This document shows positions 48,365 to 52,752 of a DNA stretch of 64,000 nt, piece after piece. A program made the position numbers and the translations under genes. Position 1 is the first letter of the stretch, and each line of letters opens with the position of its first letter. A model generated the notes under the pieces. It ran no database searches and was not told the origin of the DNA. It worked only from the letters and a program-made list of their open reading frames with translations. The DNA comes from Actinotalea soli (lineage in GTDB: Bacteria > Actinomycetota > Actinomycetes > Actinomycetales > Cellulomonadaceae): assembly GCF_017565425.1 (NCBI RefSeq), contig NZ_JAGEMK010000012.1, positions 17,472 to 81,471 of the forward strand, in the 5' to 3' direction.

Positions 48365-48373
48365 GCATGCAAG

Positions 48374-48462
48374 GACCCCCCGCACACCCGTCAGAGCCCG
48401 CCTGCCCTTGCTGCCTTCCGGCCCTGGGGGAGTTCAGCGAGATGACGCCGCACGAGGGGTCG
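48374..48462 (-). ncRNA. ffs: Signal recognition particle RNA (bacterial small type, 4.5S)
   Basis: The minus strand carries the invariant SRP core GGCCGGAAGGCAGCAAGG (near 48407-48424) with the GGAA tetraloop region, bounded by arms that pair (GACCCC near 48457-48461 with GGGGGGTC near 48375-48382). About 89 nt, usual for actinobacteria; ends are approximate. A -10 TAGGCT on the minus strand (48469-48474) fits its promoter. It lies in the gap between metI and the LolD-type operon. Confidence 0.92.
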
Positions 48463-48479
48463 ACGACAAGCCTAACGCA

Positions 48480-48519: not shown

Positions 48520-49188
48520 TCAGCGCCGCAGCGCCTTGCGGGCCAGGGCGTTGCCGAGCACCTGCACGAGCTGCACCAGCACGATGATGATCGCGACGGT
48601 GGCCCACACGACCTCCCAGTTGAAGCGCTGGTAGCCGTGCCGGATGGCGAAGTCGCCCAGACCCCCGGCACCGATCATGCCCACCACGGCCGACATGTCG
48701 ATCACCGCGATGGTCAGGAAGGTGAAGGCCAGGATCAGCGGCCCGAGGGCTTCGGGGATGAGCACCGACCACACGATCCGCCAGCGCGAGGCGCCCATGG
48801 CCCGGGCCGCCTCGACCACTCCGGGGTCCAGGGCCACGAGGTTCTGCTCGACGAGCCGCGCGAAGGCCACCGCAGCCATGATCGCCATCGGCGGGATGGC
48901 CGCCTCGATCCCGATGGTCCGCCCGACCAGGGCCATGGTCAGCGGCCCGACGGCGAAGACGAAGATGATGAACGGGATCGGTCGGATCGTGTTGATGAGC
49001 AGGTTGAGCACCGTGAAGACGATGCGGTTCTCCAGGAAGTTCCCCCGCCGCGTCACGTACACGGCCAGCCCGAGGGCCAGGCCCGCGACGCCCGCGATGA
49101 GCAGCGAGATCGAGACCATCCAGAGGGTCTCGCCGAAGGCCTTCTGCAGCAGCGGGACCAGGTAGTCCCAGTCGGTCTCGTTGTTCAT
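48520..49188 (-). CDS. metI: Methionine ABC transporter permease
   Basis: 222 aa, about five helices. ATG 49188 overlaps the metN stop by four bases. The cytoplasmic loop DPGVVEAARAMGASRWRIV (about 125-143) is the EAA docking motif, and the end IGYAGGGGLGD-type region reads MIGAGGLGDFAIRHGYQRF, diagnostic for MetI. Works with MetN and MetQ for D/L-methionine uptake. Confidence 0.95.
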   Translation of the reverse strand: MNNETDWDYLVPLLQKAFGETLWMVSISLLIAGVAGLALGLAVYVTRRGNFLENRIVFTVLNLLINTIRPIPFIIFVFAVGPLTMALVGRTIGIEAAIPPMAIMAAVAFARLVEQNLVALDPGVVEAARAMGASRWRIVWSVLIPEALGPLILAFTFLTIAVIDMSAVVGMIGAGGLGDFAIRHGYQRFNWEVVWATVAIIIVLVQLVQVLGNALARKALRR

Positions 49189-50399
49189 CGACGCCACCTC
49201 CTCAGGTGGGTGAAGGGATTCCACGTGGGACTGTCGGCGTCGGCCAGACGGTCGGTGTCGACGGCCTGCGGCAGGGTCGGGGAGGACGGCCCCTCGTCGC
49301 CCTCGGGGGAGGCGGTCGTCGCGCGGGGCCCGACGGCGTCAGGGTCGGCGAGCGGGTGCTCGGCGGTCCCGAGGTCGAGGACCGACGTGGTGCTCGACAG
49401 GTCGGTGATGAAGCCCGCGATGGCGGCGTCCTCACCGGCGAGCTCAAGGGTCAGGGACCCGTAGGGACGCTCGGCGATCTCGACGATGCCGCCGTAGATG
49501 ATGGTGCCGTCGACCGGGTGCTCGCGCAGGGCCCGGGTCAGGTCGGTCGAGGAGGCGCCGTCCTCACGCACCGCGACGGTCACGATGCGACCGGGGTGGC
49601 GGTGCCGCAGCCGCTCGAGGGCCGCGGGGCTGGGCCGGTCCCGCAGGGCGGTCCCGACGAACCGTCGCGTGGCCCGGTGCTCGGGACGGGCGAAGACCGA
49701 GTACACGTCGCCGTGCTCGACGACCTTGCCCCCCTCCATGACGGCCACGCGGTCGCAGGCGTACTTCACGACGTCCATCTCGTGGGTGATGACGACGACG
49801 GTCACGCCGAGCTCGCTGTTGACCCGGCGCAGCAGGTCCAGCACGTCCTGGGTGGTCTCCGGGTCCAGGGCCGACGTCGCCTCGTCCGCGAGCAGGATCT
49901 TGGGGTTGGTCGCCAGCGCCCGGGCGATCCCCACTCGCTGCTTCTGCCCGCCGGAGAGCTGGGAAGGGTACTGACGTGCCTTGTCGGCGAGCCCGACGAA
50001 GTCCAGCAGCTCGGCGATCCGGTCCTTGCGCTCCTCGCGGGGCCAGCCGGCGACCGCGAGCGCGTAGCCCACGTTGCCGGCCACGGTGCGCGAGGAGAGC
50101 AGGTTGAACTGCTGGAAGATCATCCCGATCCCGGCGCGGACCCGACGCAGCTCGCGCTCGGGCAGGGCGGTGACGTCCTGACCGTCGACGATCACCTCGC
50201 CGGCTGTCGCGGGCTCGAGGGCGTTGATGAGGCGCACCAGGGTCGACTTCCCGGCACCGGAGTAGCCGATGACGCCGAAGATCTCACCGGTGCGGATGTC
50301 CAGGGTCACGTCGTCGACGGCGCGGACCTCGCCGGACTTCGCAGGGAAGGTCTTGACCGCGTGGCGGAAGCTGACCATCGGTGGAGCGGTCGTGCTCAC
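49185..50399 (-). CDS. metN: Methionine ABC transporter ATP-binding protein
   Basis: 404 aa from GTG 50399. Walker A GYSGAGKSTLVR (about 48-59), the MetN-type Q-loop GMIFQQFNLLSSRTV, signature LSGGQKQRVGIARAL, Walker B ILLADEATSALDP, and the C-terminal NIL (ACT-like) methionine-sensing domain (about 265-345) that inhibits transport when the cell is full. The last 55 residues are a non-conserved Pro/Ser/Asp tail. Two hairpins precede it after metQ. Confidence 0.95.
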   Translation of the reverse strand: MSTTAPPMVSFRHAVKTFPAKSGEVRAVDDVTLDIRTGEIFGVIGYSGAGKSTLVRLINALEPATAGEVIVDGQDVTALPERELRRVRAGIGMIFQQFNLLSSRTVAGNVGYALAVAGWPREERKDRIAELLDFVGLADKARQYPSQLSGGQKQRVGIARALATNPKILLADEATSALDPETTQDVLDLLRRVNSELGVTVVVITHEMDVVKYACDRVAVMEGGKVVEHGDVYSVFARPEHRATRRFVGTALRDRPSPAALERLRHRHPGRIVTVAVREDGASSTDLTRALREHPVDGTIIYGGIVEIAERPYGSLTLELAGEDAAIAGFITDLSSTTSVLDLGTAEHPLADPDAVGPRATTASPEGDEGPSSPTLPQAVDTDRLADADSPTWNPFTHLRRWRR

Positions 50400-50536: not shown

Positions 50537-51454
50537 TCAGCCCTGGGAGTCGGCCTGGACCTCGGCGAGGTAGCCCTGGAGCTCCTCGGCGGACTGGTCC
50601 GCGATGACTGCCGTGCCGCCCGAACCGGCCACGAGGGCGTCCTGGACCTCGGGGTCCTTGTACAGCTCGATCAGCGCGGCGAAGCGCGGGTCGTCGGCGT
50701 TGTCGGCCCGGGCCGCCCAGACGTTGATGTACGGGCGGGCGGCGTCCGAGCTGGCGTCGTCCTGGTAGAGGGCGTCGGCGGCGTCGATCCCGGCGTCCTC
50801 GAGGAAGTCGTTGTTGATGATCGACGCGGAGACCGAGTCCAGGGCCAGGGCCGTCTGCTGGGCGTCGACCGGCGTCACGGTCACGCGGGACTCGTCGGCG
50901 AGCACGTCGGCCTCGGTCGAGAAGGCCGTGCCGCCGTCGCGCAGGGCGATCAGACCGGCGTCCTGCAGCACCAGCAGGGCACGCGAGAGGTTGGTCGGGT
51001 CGTTGGGGACCGCGATCTCGCCGCCCTCGGGGATGTCGTCGACCGAGGTGAACTCGGACGAGTACAGGCCCAGCGGGTAGACGGCGGTCGCCGCGATCGG
51101 GACGAGGTCCTCCCCGGCCTCCACGTTGTACTGGGCGAGGTAGAGGATGTGCTGGAACTGGTTGAGGTCGAGCTGCTCCTGGCTGAGGGCCGGGTTGGGC
51201 TGGGAGTACTCGGTGAAGTCGATGATCTCGACCTCGAGGCCCTCGTCGGCGGCCTTCTGCTCGAAGAGCCTCCACTCGTCGGAGGAGGCCCCGACGACGC
51301 CGATGGTCACGGGCTCGTCGGCGGCGGAGGCGTCCTCGGCGCCCGTCTCGGCGTCCCCGCTCTCAGGGGAGCAGGCTGCGAGGCCCAGGGTCAGGGTCGC
51401 GGCGGCGAGGATGGCCGAGGTGCGCAGGGCGGGGCGGCGGGTGGTGCGGCTCAT
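50537..51454 (-). CDS. metQ: Methionine-binding lipoprotein MetQ
   Basis: 305-aa receptor of the methionine importer. A Tat-free Sec signal with lipobox LAAC (Cys about 28), an acidic linker, then a NlpA/MetQ domain with VTIGVVGASSDEWRLF (about 50-65) and FEYSQPN-type strand reading FTEYSQPNPALSQEQLDLNQFQH within about 80-105. The domain runs to the end (about 300). Preceded by a 316-bp leader with a Met-rich ORF. Confidence 0.95.
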   Translation of the reverse strand: MSRTTRRPALRTSAILAAATLTLGLAACSPESGDAETGAEDASAADEPVTIGVVGASSDEWRLFEQKAADEGLEVEIIDFTEYSQPNPALSQEQLDLNQFQHILYLAQYNVEAGEDLVPIAATAVYPLGLYSSEFTSVDDIPEGGEIAVPNDPTNLSRALLVLQDAGLIALRDGGTAFSTEADVLADESRVTVTPVDAQQTALALDSVSASIINNDFLEDAGIDAADALYQDDASSDAARPYINVWAARADNADDPRFAALIELYKDPEVQDALVAGSGGTAVIADQSAEELQGYLAEVQADSQG

Positions 51455-51672
51455 GATGGATTCCTTCGGTGGTGCCGGCGGTGTCCCGGCGGGGGTTCAG
51501 GGGGAGGCGTGCTCAGCGGCACGCAGCACCACGGGCTGCCGGTCGCTGCTCAGAGGGCAGGGCACGACGCCGCGGGCGCGGTGGGGCAGGCGGGGTTCCG
51601 GCAGCTGAGGTGCCGGGGGCCGACGGTCGGAGCGGTGGAGCTGGGCCCGGTGTCCGGGCGGTCAGTCGGGGC
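51455..51672 (-). other. Long structured leader of metQ
   Basis: 218 bp between the Met-rich leader ORF and metQ with no further gene. On the minus strand it can form several stems: GCCCGG-ACA-CCGGGC right after the leader ORF stop, CGGCA...TGCCG, CCGGCAG...CTGC-type pairing, and GCCGG...CCGGC just before the ribosome site. No SAM riboswitch core is recognised. Suited to attenuation controlled by the upstream ORF. Confidence 0.45.
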
Positions 51673-51771
51673 TCAGGCGGTCGCGGCGTCCCGCTGCAGC
51701 ATTCGCATGCACATCATCGCGCGGGCGGAGGCCGCGTCGATGTGCAGGGCGAGCATGCTGTGGCGGGTCAT
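51673..51771 (-). CDS. Met-rich leader peptide of the metQNI operon (32 aa)
   Basis: ATG 51771 to TGA 51673-51675, same direction as metQ. Six of 32 residues are Met, four of them in MMCMRM (19-24), with one Cys between. The start MTRHSMLALHID recalls the MxxRxHVDL pattern of the Cys-rich leader peptides found before sulfur-assimilation genes in actinobacteria. The ATG follows a -35/-10 at a distance that makes the mRNA leaderless. Ribosome stalling at the Met cluster when methionyl-tRNA is scarce would change folding of the downstream leader. Not experimentally known; called from sequence and position. Confidence 0.6.
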   Translation of the reverse strand: MTRHSMLALHIDAASARAMMCMRMLQRDAATA

Positions 51772-51777
51772 GGCGCC

Positions 51778-51806
51778 ATCGTGCCCCGGCCCGACGCGTC
51801 CACCAA
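51778..51806 (-). promoter_or_regulatory. Promoter of the metQ leader
   Basis: On the minus strand TTGGTG (51801-51806), a 17-bp spacer and CACGAT (51778-51783), then six bases to the ATG of the leader ORF. Spacing is ideal, the -10 itself is weak. Confidence 0.4.
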
Positions 51807-51865
51807 GCGGGATGGACACATGTCTCGCATCATGGGACGCGAGACGCCCGTTCTCGTCTCAGCAC

Positions 51866-51879
51866 GTGACCGGGGTCAC
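51866..51879. promoter_or_regulatory. CRP/GlxR-like site upstream of the metQ leader
   Basis: GTGACCGGGGTCAC has the GTGA-N6-TCAC core of CRP/GlxR sites, about 95 bp upstream of the inferred metQ transcription start. It also lies in a stretch that could be remnant coding DNA, so it may be chance. Confidence 0.35.
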
Positions 51880-52000
51880 GCCGGCGAGGCTCGCCGGGCT
51901 CGTGCGCCGGCGCCGCTCCGGGCGCTGCACGCAGCACCACCTCGACACCTCCCTCTGGCCGCCGTCCTGCATCGGTGGCCCCTCCCGGGACGAGGACCTC

Positions 52001-52207
52001 GTGCCCCGCATCCAGCTCTCCAACGTCTACGTGGACGACCAAGCCAAGGCCCGGGCCTCGTACACCGAGGTGCTCGGGTTCGTCCCACGCACCGACATCC
52101 CGGTGGGCGAGCTCCGGTGGCTCACCGTGGGCTGGTGCGCGAGATGCTCCCGCGCGCTGCCTGCCCCCGTGCCAGACGTGGCGGCCCGACGAAATCAGGC
52201 GGGGTGA
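52001..52207 (+). pseudogene. Truncated VOC (glyoxalase/bleomycin-resistance) family gene
   Basis: From GTG 52001, after GGACGAGGA, the frame reads PRIQLSNVYVDDQAKARA, SYTEVLGFVPRTDIPVGE, LRWLTV, the first strand-helix unit of a VOC domain of the DUF/glyoxalase type. Then similarity stops abruptly (after about 46 residues) and unrelated residues follow to TGA 52207. Family members have about 125-135 residues, so about two thirds is lost. The end overlaps the convergent small membrane-protein gene, whose arrival or a deletion may have removed the rest. Confidence 0.7.
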
Positions 52208-52667: not shown

Positions 52668-52752
52668 GGAGGATTCGCCTAGTGGCCTATGGCGCACGCT
52701 TGGAAAGCGTGTTGGGTTAACGCCCTCGGGGGTTCGAATCCCCCATCCTCCG
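52668..52752 (+). tRNA. tRNA-Ser(GGA)
   Basis: Class II tRNA: acceptor GGAGGAT/ATCCTCC, anticodon stem CACGC/GCGTG with loop TTGGAAA (anticodon GGA), long variable arm, T-arm GGGGG-TTCGAAT-CCCCC, discriminator G; CCA is not encoded. Confidence 0.96.

Follow-up and report, generated by a model that had tools for sequence, protein, structure and literature searches.

We identified a short ORF in front of the methionine ABC transporter operon metQNI of Actinotalea soli that is conserved in the family Cellulomonadaceae and that, judged from sequence comparison, probably encodes a Met/Cys leader peptide controlling metQNI by ribosome stalling. It was found in a 64,000-nt stretch of DNA (hereafter, the window). 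A leader of this kind before a Met transporter is not new, since metL of Streptomyces lividans is already in print (PMC8079986). What is new here is the preference for the codon CGA directly before an internal Met in these leaders. Leader peptides are usually judged by the number of their control codons, whereas in this case the codon preceding the control codon is kept: CGA, for which an inosine-type tRNA is the only one found, is retained before the control Met in three families, despite its absence from that position in the 556 of the organism's own genes that were examined. If this is true, the sensitivity of an attenuator would be set by codon pairs, and one synonymous change can test it. 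In addition, control of Met uptake by the combined supply of Met and Cys becomes testable in Actinobacteria, whose methionine operons reportedly lack conserved RNA structures, none having been seen before them as far as that account covers them (PMC1262725).

Results

Leader ORF and its promoter

The leader ORF directly precedes metQNI (Table 1) and contains one Cys codon and six Met codons, five of which are internal; its Met/Cys cluster falls in the C-terminal half of the peptide. A first-pass annotation of the same DNA, made from the sequence alone, had described a 32-codon sense ORF with six Met codons, four of them within MMCMRM, and this description was exact. Its layout of promoter elements (TTGGTG, a 17-nt spacer, CACGAT and 6 nt to the ATG) was also recovered as described. 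The accompanying claim that these elements form a promoter for an mRNA starting at or near the ATG held for position, which is typical across leaders of the family, but not for sequence, as the strict consensus is absent. A general consensus scan of 51300-51900 detected no sigma-70 promoter; thus, the leader promoter is weak by consensus and its support comes from its position. A NANNNT box ending 6-7 nt 5′ of an in-frame start was present in 78 of 103 family leaders versus 81 of 958 control ATGs, a comparison in which leaders with several in-frame starts had several tries. TTG was found in the −35 zone in only 21 of these 78 leaders, and the box was mostly absent in two genera, g20 (1/11) and g21 (4/15). 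The mRNA of the window leader is predicted to be leaderless and to start at the leader AUG, which fits the promoter position.

Upstream of the leader, the plus strand (51995-52121) encodes the N-terminal part of a glyoxalase/bleomycin-resistance-like domain, apparently from a truncated gene; the Pfam match is weak (E 0.006) and under the cut-off. The metQNI leader has an SRP RNA and a tRNA gene in its vicinity (48368-48464, minus strand, and 52668-52752, plus strand), and relatives have them as well, in a different arrangement (loci L093, L133 and L153). Several g20 genomes contain two adjacent copies of metQ (e.g., G556:C246:22184-24553).

Table 1. Features of the metQNI leader region in the window
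Feature	Position	Strand	Remarks
Leader peptide ORF, MTRHSMLALHIDAASARAMMCMRMLQRDAATA	51673..51771	-	32 codons + TGA; ATG at 51771, TGA 51675-51673
Met/Cys cluster MMCMRM	51700..51717	-	MMCCRM and similar in relatives
Codon pair CGA AUG (Arg-Met), conserved	51700..51705	-	within MMCMRM
-35-like TTGGTG	51801..51806	-	read from sequence
-10-like CACGAT	51778..51783	-	ends 6 nt before leader ATG; predicted leaderless start
metQ, methionine-binding lipoprotein, MetQ/NlpA family	50537..51454	-	TIGR00363 E 1.1e-44, below curated cut-off
metN, ATPase (start approximate)	49185..50399	-	named by sequence as read and by place between metQ and metI
metI, permease	48520..49224	-	NF008049 E 3.6e-45, below curated cut-off
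GAAGGAA, Shine-Dalgarno-like, before metQ	51461..51467	-	metQ ATG at 51454
Leader-metQ gap, C-rich	51455..51672	-	218 nt; no U-tract terminator found
Hairpin GCCCGG ACA CCGGGC	51645..51659	-	13 nt after stop codon; fold read by eye
Hairpin CCGGCA CCTCAGC TGCCGG	51598..51616	-	recurs in near relatives

Conservation of the leader in Cellulomonadaceae

With the 32-residue peptide as query, 17 of the 150 family genomes searched had a match at E≤1. At 12 of the 23 loci of this first family search (the window included), the match lay immediately 5′ of metQ and on its strand; named relatives that have a close metQ were Actinotalea, Cellulomonas, Oerskovia, Flavimobilis and an uncultured Cellulomonadaceae record. 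When the search started from metQ, the gene was detected in 155 of 200 family genomes. The matches listed provided 112 upstream regions, 103 of which contained a leader (two or more Met/Cys within eight residues), and 110 of which were long enough for a conservation test. Here we required an ORF of 18-62 codons starting with ATG, containing at least three Met/Cys in eight residues and located between −500 and −60. Such an ORF was present in 95 of the 110 family regions. Among the controls, it occurred on 10 of 110 opposite strands, in 43 of 550 dinucleotide-shuffled sequences and in 3 of 56 metQ regions sampled elsewhere in the order, from families other than this one; the related genomes in these counts are not independent of each other. 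Thus, in the sampled families of the order, the leader belongs to Cellulomonadaceae rather than to its sisters. The first-pass annotation had asked for a comparison of regions upstream of metQ, and in this comparison a short ORF with clustered Met/Cys is conserved in relatives.

Comparison of the window genome with that of its nearest relative revealed 0 changes in the 99 positions of the leader and 43 in 900 of metQ, with 15 changes in the 100 nt before the leader and 5 in the first 150 nt after it. Within genera, changes in the leader showed no excess at the third codon position (537, 372 and 457 at positions 1, 2 and 3), so coding selection receives no support from the codon-position test. 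NCBIfam contains no family for the leader peptide. An order-wide profile search with leaders of the window group gave matches at E≤1 in 242 of 396 genomes, mostly at chance level; two of the 29 new loci (L024 and L026) lie before metQ. In addition, no such leader was seen in the metQ regions of two other families in the class (f45, 7 loci; f35, 4 loci), where the operon may start elsewhere. In another family of the order, a single locus (L224) has a lone leader-like ORF, MAPVSTSIVLRASLRPSPGRMMRMCA, 227 nt upstream of metQ, which would be either an independent gain or a remnant.

Met and Cys content of metQ leaders and Cys leaders

Besides the window genome, one near relative has the core MMCMRM. 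Other leaders of the window group have MMCCRM, MCCCRM, MMCGRM or MMCARM, and cores elsewhere in the family are CCRMSCR...RMCC, MMCCR...GCCR, VMCCRRMPAGRMC, CCRMSC, or RMC near the stop. In total, the 95 leaders contain 333 Cys and 235 Met, which corresponds to 11.6% and 8.2% of residues, versus 3.2% and 2.9% in other ORFs of the same regions, Met/Cys content having been a criterion in the selection of leaders.

Leaders of sulfite reductase genes from the same genomes provided a better, paired control. Thirty genomes were searched and 27 had matches to PF03460. A leader-like ORF, chosen by a Met/Cys rule similar to that for metQ leaders, was present upstream at 16 of the 21 loci scanned (L171-L190 and L198; frames mostly of 570-670 aa, which we read as assimilatory sulfite reductases) and absent at five. 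These are Cys leaders such as MTTAAHLLLVTARHESTACARNSFCCCC, several of them of an MTTAA...CC type. Across the 16 same-genome pairs, the number of Met residues rose from 17 in sulfite-reductase leaders to 37 in metQ leaders and that of Cys fell from 77 to 61 (Wilcoxon p 0.009 and 0.03), where Met may shift by one because some metQ peptides were cut by the script at an internal Met and a few had a start placed too far upstream. In the last 18 residues, a count free of most of this start-choice error, Met rose from 14 to 33 and Cys fell from 72 to 53 (p 0.009 and 0.005). This paired rise indicates that Met was added before the Met transporter. The suggestion that the leader is the Met counterpart of Cys leaders is therefore borne out in the doubled Met and lowered Cys relative to paired Cys leaders, but the core is mixed and Cys exceeds Met overall; a Met-dominated leader fits the window and one near relative and does not hold as a general feature.

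A conserved CGA-AUG codon pair

In the 103 family leaders, the Arg codon before an internal Met was CGA in 90 of 99 cases, compared with 15 of 380 for the other Arg codons of the leaders and 5 of 216 in a metQ control; leaders had been selected for Met/Cys content, but not for Arg codons. After Cys, CGA accounted for 0 of 91 Arg codons, none standing there unless Met followed. Counted by distinct leaders, 84 of 101 had Arg-Met and 81 had CGA-AUG, which occurred in 16 of the 22 genera and was missing in six. All 90 copies of CGAATG inside leaders were in frame, at distances of 3 to 20 codons from the stop and with varying flanking sequence. Elsewhere in the 112 family regions the hexamer was found four times outside the leader, three times in regions without a called leader and six times on the opposite strand; the 56 outgroup regions contained 10 sense and 8 antisense copies.

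Codon usage of the organism itself was assessed in 556 genes, called by script from 784 kb of the 3.63-Mb genome. CGA made up 1310 of 18,640 Arg codons and preceded ATG in 0 of 251 Arg-Met pairs. That CGAATG is a specially avoided word of the genome was rejected, with 14 copies seen versus 17.8 expected from shorter words. The rarity of these shorter words (e.g., A before A at codon borders) accounts for the absence of CGAATG from genes; thus, genes follow a general bias, which the leaders override. One other short intergenic ORF in the same 784 kb had CGA-ATG in frame; the next gene called on its strand is 13.3 kb away. An origin of CGA in complementarity to downstream RNA was also rejected: values for own and swapped downstream sequences were 0.34 and 0.34 for five-letter words, and 0.04 and 0.12 for six-letter words.

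The pair is not limited to Cellulomonadaceae. When 345 genomes of the class were searched with metL, the 30 best matches yielded 29 leaders, all 29 located upstream of metN, and CGA was used in 29 of their 30 Arg-Met pairs; we refer to these leaders as Streptomyces by their likeness to metL. In a third family (f38), Met-rich leaders such as MSRASSDTARIVSTALGRGMSMCPMRMRRCR precede metQ in the ten loci read, with CGA in 8 of 12 Arg-Met pairs and CGAATG in 8 of the 10 loci. The Arg-Met pairs of sulfite-reductase Cys leaders also use CGA (4/4).

Arg tRNAs of the window genome have the anticodons ACG, CCG, CCT and TCT, and no TCG was detected (ARAGORN, 44 distinct tRNA sequences in the stretches of the genome covered; Rfam gave 45 genes, the additional one having 90 nt, the size of Leu or Ser tRNAs). 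As ACG, an inosine-type tRNA, is the only one found for CGA, this codon should be read by inosine-adenine wobble according to established decoding rules, and the CGA-AUG pair is probably decoded slowly, which would make stalling at Met sharper. For the Salmonella his leader, strong stalling is attributed to CGA in the findings as reported (PMC4046918), and in yeast CGA-AUA is listed among conserved inhibitory pairs, with inosine-adenine wobble stressed as the cause (PMC6379720). Among the open-licence papers listed, no title or abstract opening described CGA-AUG in leader peptides.

Region between leader and metQ

The gap of about 218 bp before metQ noted in the first-pass annotation is exact, whereas the word foldable applies to it weakly: RNA spanning the leader stop, with 20 nt on the 5′ side and 90 nt on the 3′ side, was more stable than shuffled sequences in 20 of 22 genera, with a mean z of −1.57 (MFE). 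Hairpins of different sequence also follow soon after the leader stop in several window-group relatives, as read by eye. No intrinsic terminator (GC hairpin and U-tract) was found in the window gap. Pairing of the leader with downstream RNA was not above swapped controls (six tests, p 0.26 to 0.98), and such pairing was rejected as a family-wide rule, none of the six tests being significant. Without its last 15 nt, the gap averages 141 to 288 nt by genus. All 103 family gaps contained more C than G (means 0.48 and 0.29), as did 46 of 56 outgroup regions (0.37 and 0.31).

Known RNA elements were also considered and rejected. The window leader had no Rfam match at gathering scores, no SAM-I riboswitch or other Rfam element was found for the leader in the loci of five relatives, the SAM-I covariance model did not match the window leader, and the organism's genome had no RF00162. 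A conserved element, GCTGATGGCC, occurs 51-97 nt after the leader stop at 43 loci in genera g3, g7, g8, g11 and g21, in four of the five behind a GCTCGCC-type sequence (e.g., L079, L093 and L098). It was not found in the window group, had no Rfam match in the loci scanned, and might serve in pausing or as a site for a regulator.

Discussion

Proposed mechanism and alternative explanations

According to the mechanism that we propose, a ribosome that has begun on the 5′ AUG would stall at MMCMRM when charged Met-tRNA (or Cys-tRNA) is scarce, and CGA, occupying the P site until Met arrives, would lengthen the vacancy at the Met codon. The stalled ribosome may then keep the C-rich downstream RNA from Rho, or refold the RNA, so that transcription continues into metQNI; with Met in ample supply, the ribosome would complete the leader and transcription would stop before metQ. 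These two output steps are the least certain, and Rho-type attenuation in particular is a guess of low certainty; for Cys leaders, it was put forward earlier as a weak prediction in the portion of the study concerned (PMC1262725). We further suggest, tentatively and at somewhat less than even chances, that CGA-AUG acts as a codon-pair amplified Met sensor, in which a small dip in Met-tRNA leads to a long stall, and that metQNI leaders, Streptomyces metL, leaders of the third family and some Cys leaders represent one old mixed Met/Cys device.

Met uptake should matter in the organism, since its genome had no match to PAPS reductase (PF01507) and no PF03460 match of sulfite-reductase size, the single one lying in a 933-aa frame that we read as nitrite reductase. 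The same pattern (no PF01507 match, one PF03460 match each, 875-947 aa) was observed in the window genome (G000) and in G125, G113 and G139, and these genomes likely do not assimilate sulfate. Dependence on imported sulfur amino acids, which these few genomes point to, would fit a Met-shifted leader.

The Cys codons might instead be the sensor, as in leaders of sulfate-assimilation operons, with Met codons incidental and Met uptake providing an alternative sulfur source at Cys shortage. The overall excess of Cys over Met (333 vs 235) agrees with such a reading, as do the Cys leaders at 16 of 21 sulfite-reductase loci in the same genomes and those described in Actinobacteria (PMC1262725, PMC4633059, in the parts devoted to such leaders). 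We nevertheless regard it as unlikely, because the paired Cys leaders have about half as much Met and more Cys, the window leader has five internal Met and one Cys, f38 leaders are of the type exemplified above, and the sole fixed codon pair ends on Met, CGA being absent after Cys (0/91). Somewhat less credible still is that CGAAUG serves as an RNA element, either as a binding site for a protein or because a fold requires it, and that its in-frame position is a by-product, so that the ORF would matter less than the RNA. The variable flanks and distances to the stop (3 to 20 codons), the in-frame position of all 90 leader copies, a downstream complementarity equal to that of swapped controls and an enrichment of Met/Cys that is a signal at the amino-acid level all oppose it, although the hexamer is conserved in three families and RNA around the stop is more stably folded than shuffled sequence in 20 of 22 genera.

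It is improbable, too, that the leader hands ribosomes to metQ by translational coupling, with no attenuation involved. In mycobacteria, overlapping Cys uORFs are said to deliver ribosomes in this way. The window leader stops 218 nt before metQ and the genus means of the gap (141 to 288 nt) are long for coupling; moreover, metQ has its own Shine-Dalgarno-like sequence. Coupling draws some support from the missing terminator in the window gap and from a leaderless uORF layout like that described for mycobacteria (PMC4633059, as far as that description extends). Finally, many mechanical ORFs arise in a GC-rich stretch such as this one, but a chance ORF is next to impossible here and is refuted for the family by the conservation controls (95/110 vs 10/110, 43/550 and 3/56), with similar ORFs before metQ in many genera. 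Control of metQNI by ribosome stalling on a Met/Cys leader is the reading that we prefer.

Comparison with known systems

SAM riboswitches and T-boxes of methionine genes place the same pathway under 5′ RNA control, whereas the window leader has no Rfam match. Classical trp and his attenuators contain control codons for the amino acid of their own operon. The control codons of the window leader are alike, but it differs from these attenuators in that no U-tract terminator was found in the window gap and mutually exclusive helices involving the control codons gave no signal above swapped controls.

Actinobacterial Cys leaders resemble the window leader in the short ORF, the sulfur-amino-acid codons near its end and the lack of a clear terminator, and differ in their Cys runs, compared to the Met/Cys mix here, and in the genes that they precede, as far as the descriptions of these leaders go (PMC1262725, PMC4633059). 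With its one Cys, the window leader has no Cys run. The mycobacterial Cys leaders are leaderless in the account given of them, as is predicted for the window leader (PMC4633059).

As far as the open-licence literature was followed, no published leader of a Met transporter was found besides metL of S. lividans TK24 (SLIV_29928), MSTTSDRTPATEATTTPGARCMCRRMCAF, which is reported as a methionine leader before metNIQ (PMC8079986). A search of the window genome with metL gave chance-level matches only (best E 0.415). The metL leader differs from the window leader in preceding metN rather than metQ and in its N-terminal sequence, and the portion of that report dealing with the leader names methionines and threonines, with nothing seen there on a Cys signal, other genera or CGA-AUG (PMC8079986). 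Like the window leader, metL is a short Met/Cys leader before a Met ABC transporter. It is described as leaderless, as is predicted for the window leader, and as having no typical Rho-independent terminator; it ends in RMC and two further residues, and RMC near the stop is also present in some family leaders (PMC8079986, as regards metL). In addition, metL homologues share the CGA-AUG pair with the window leader.
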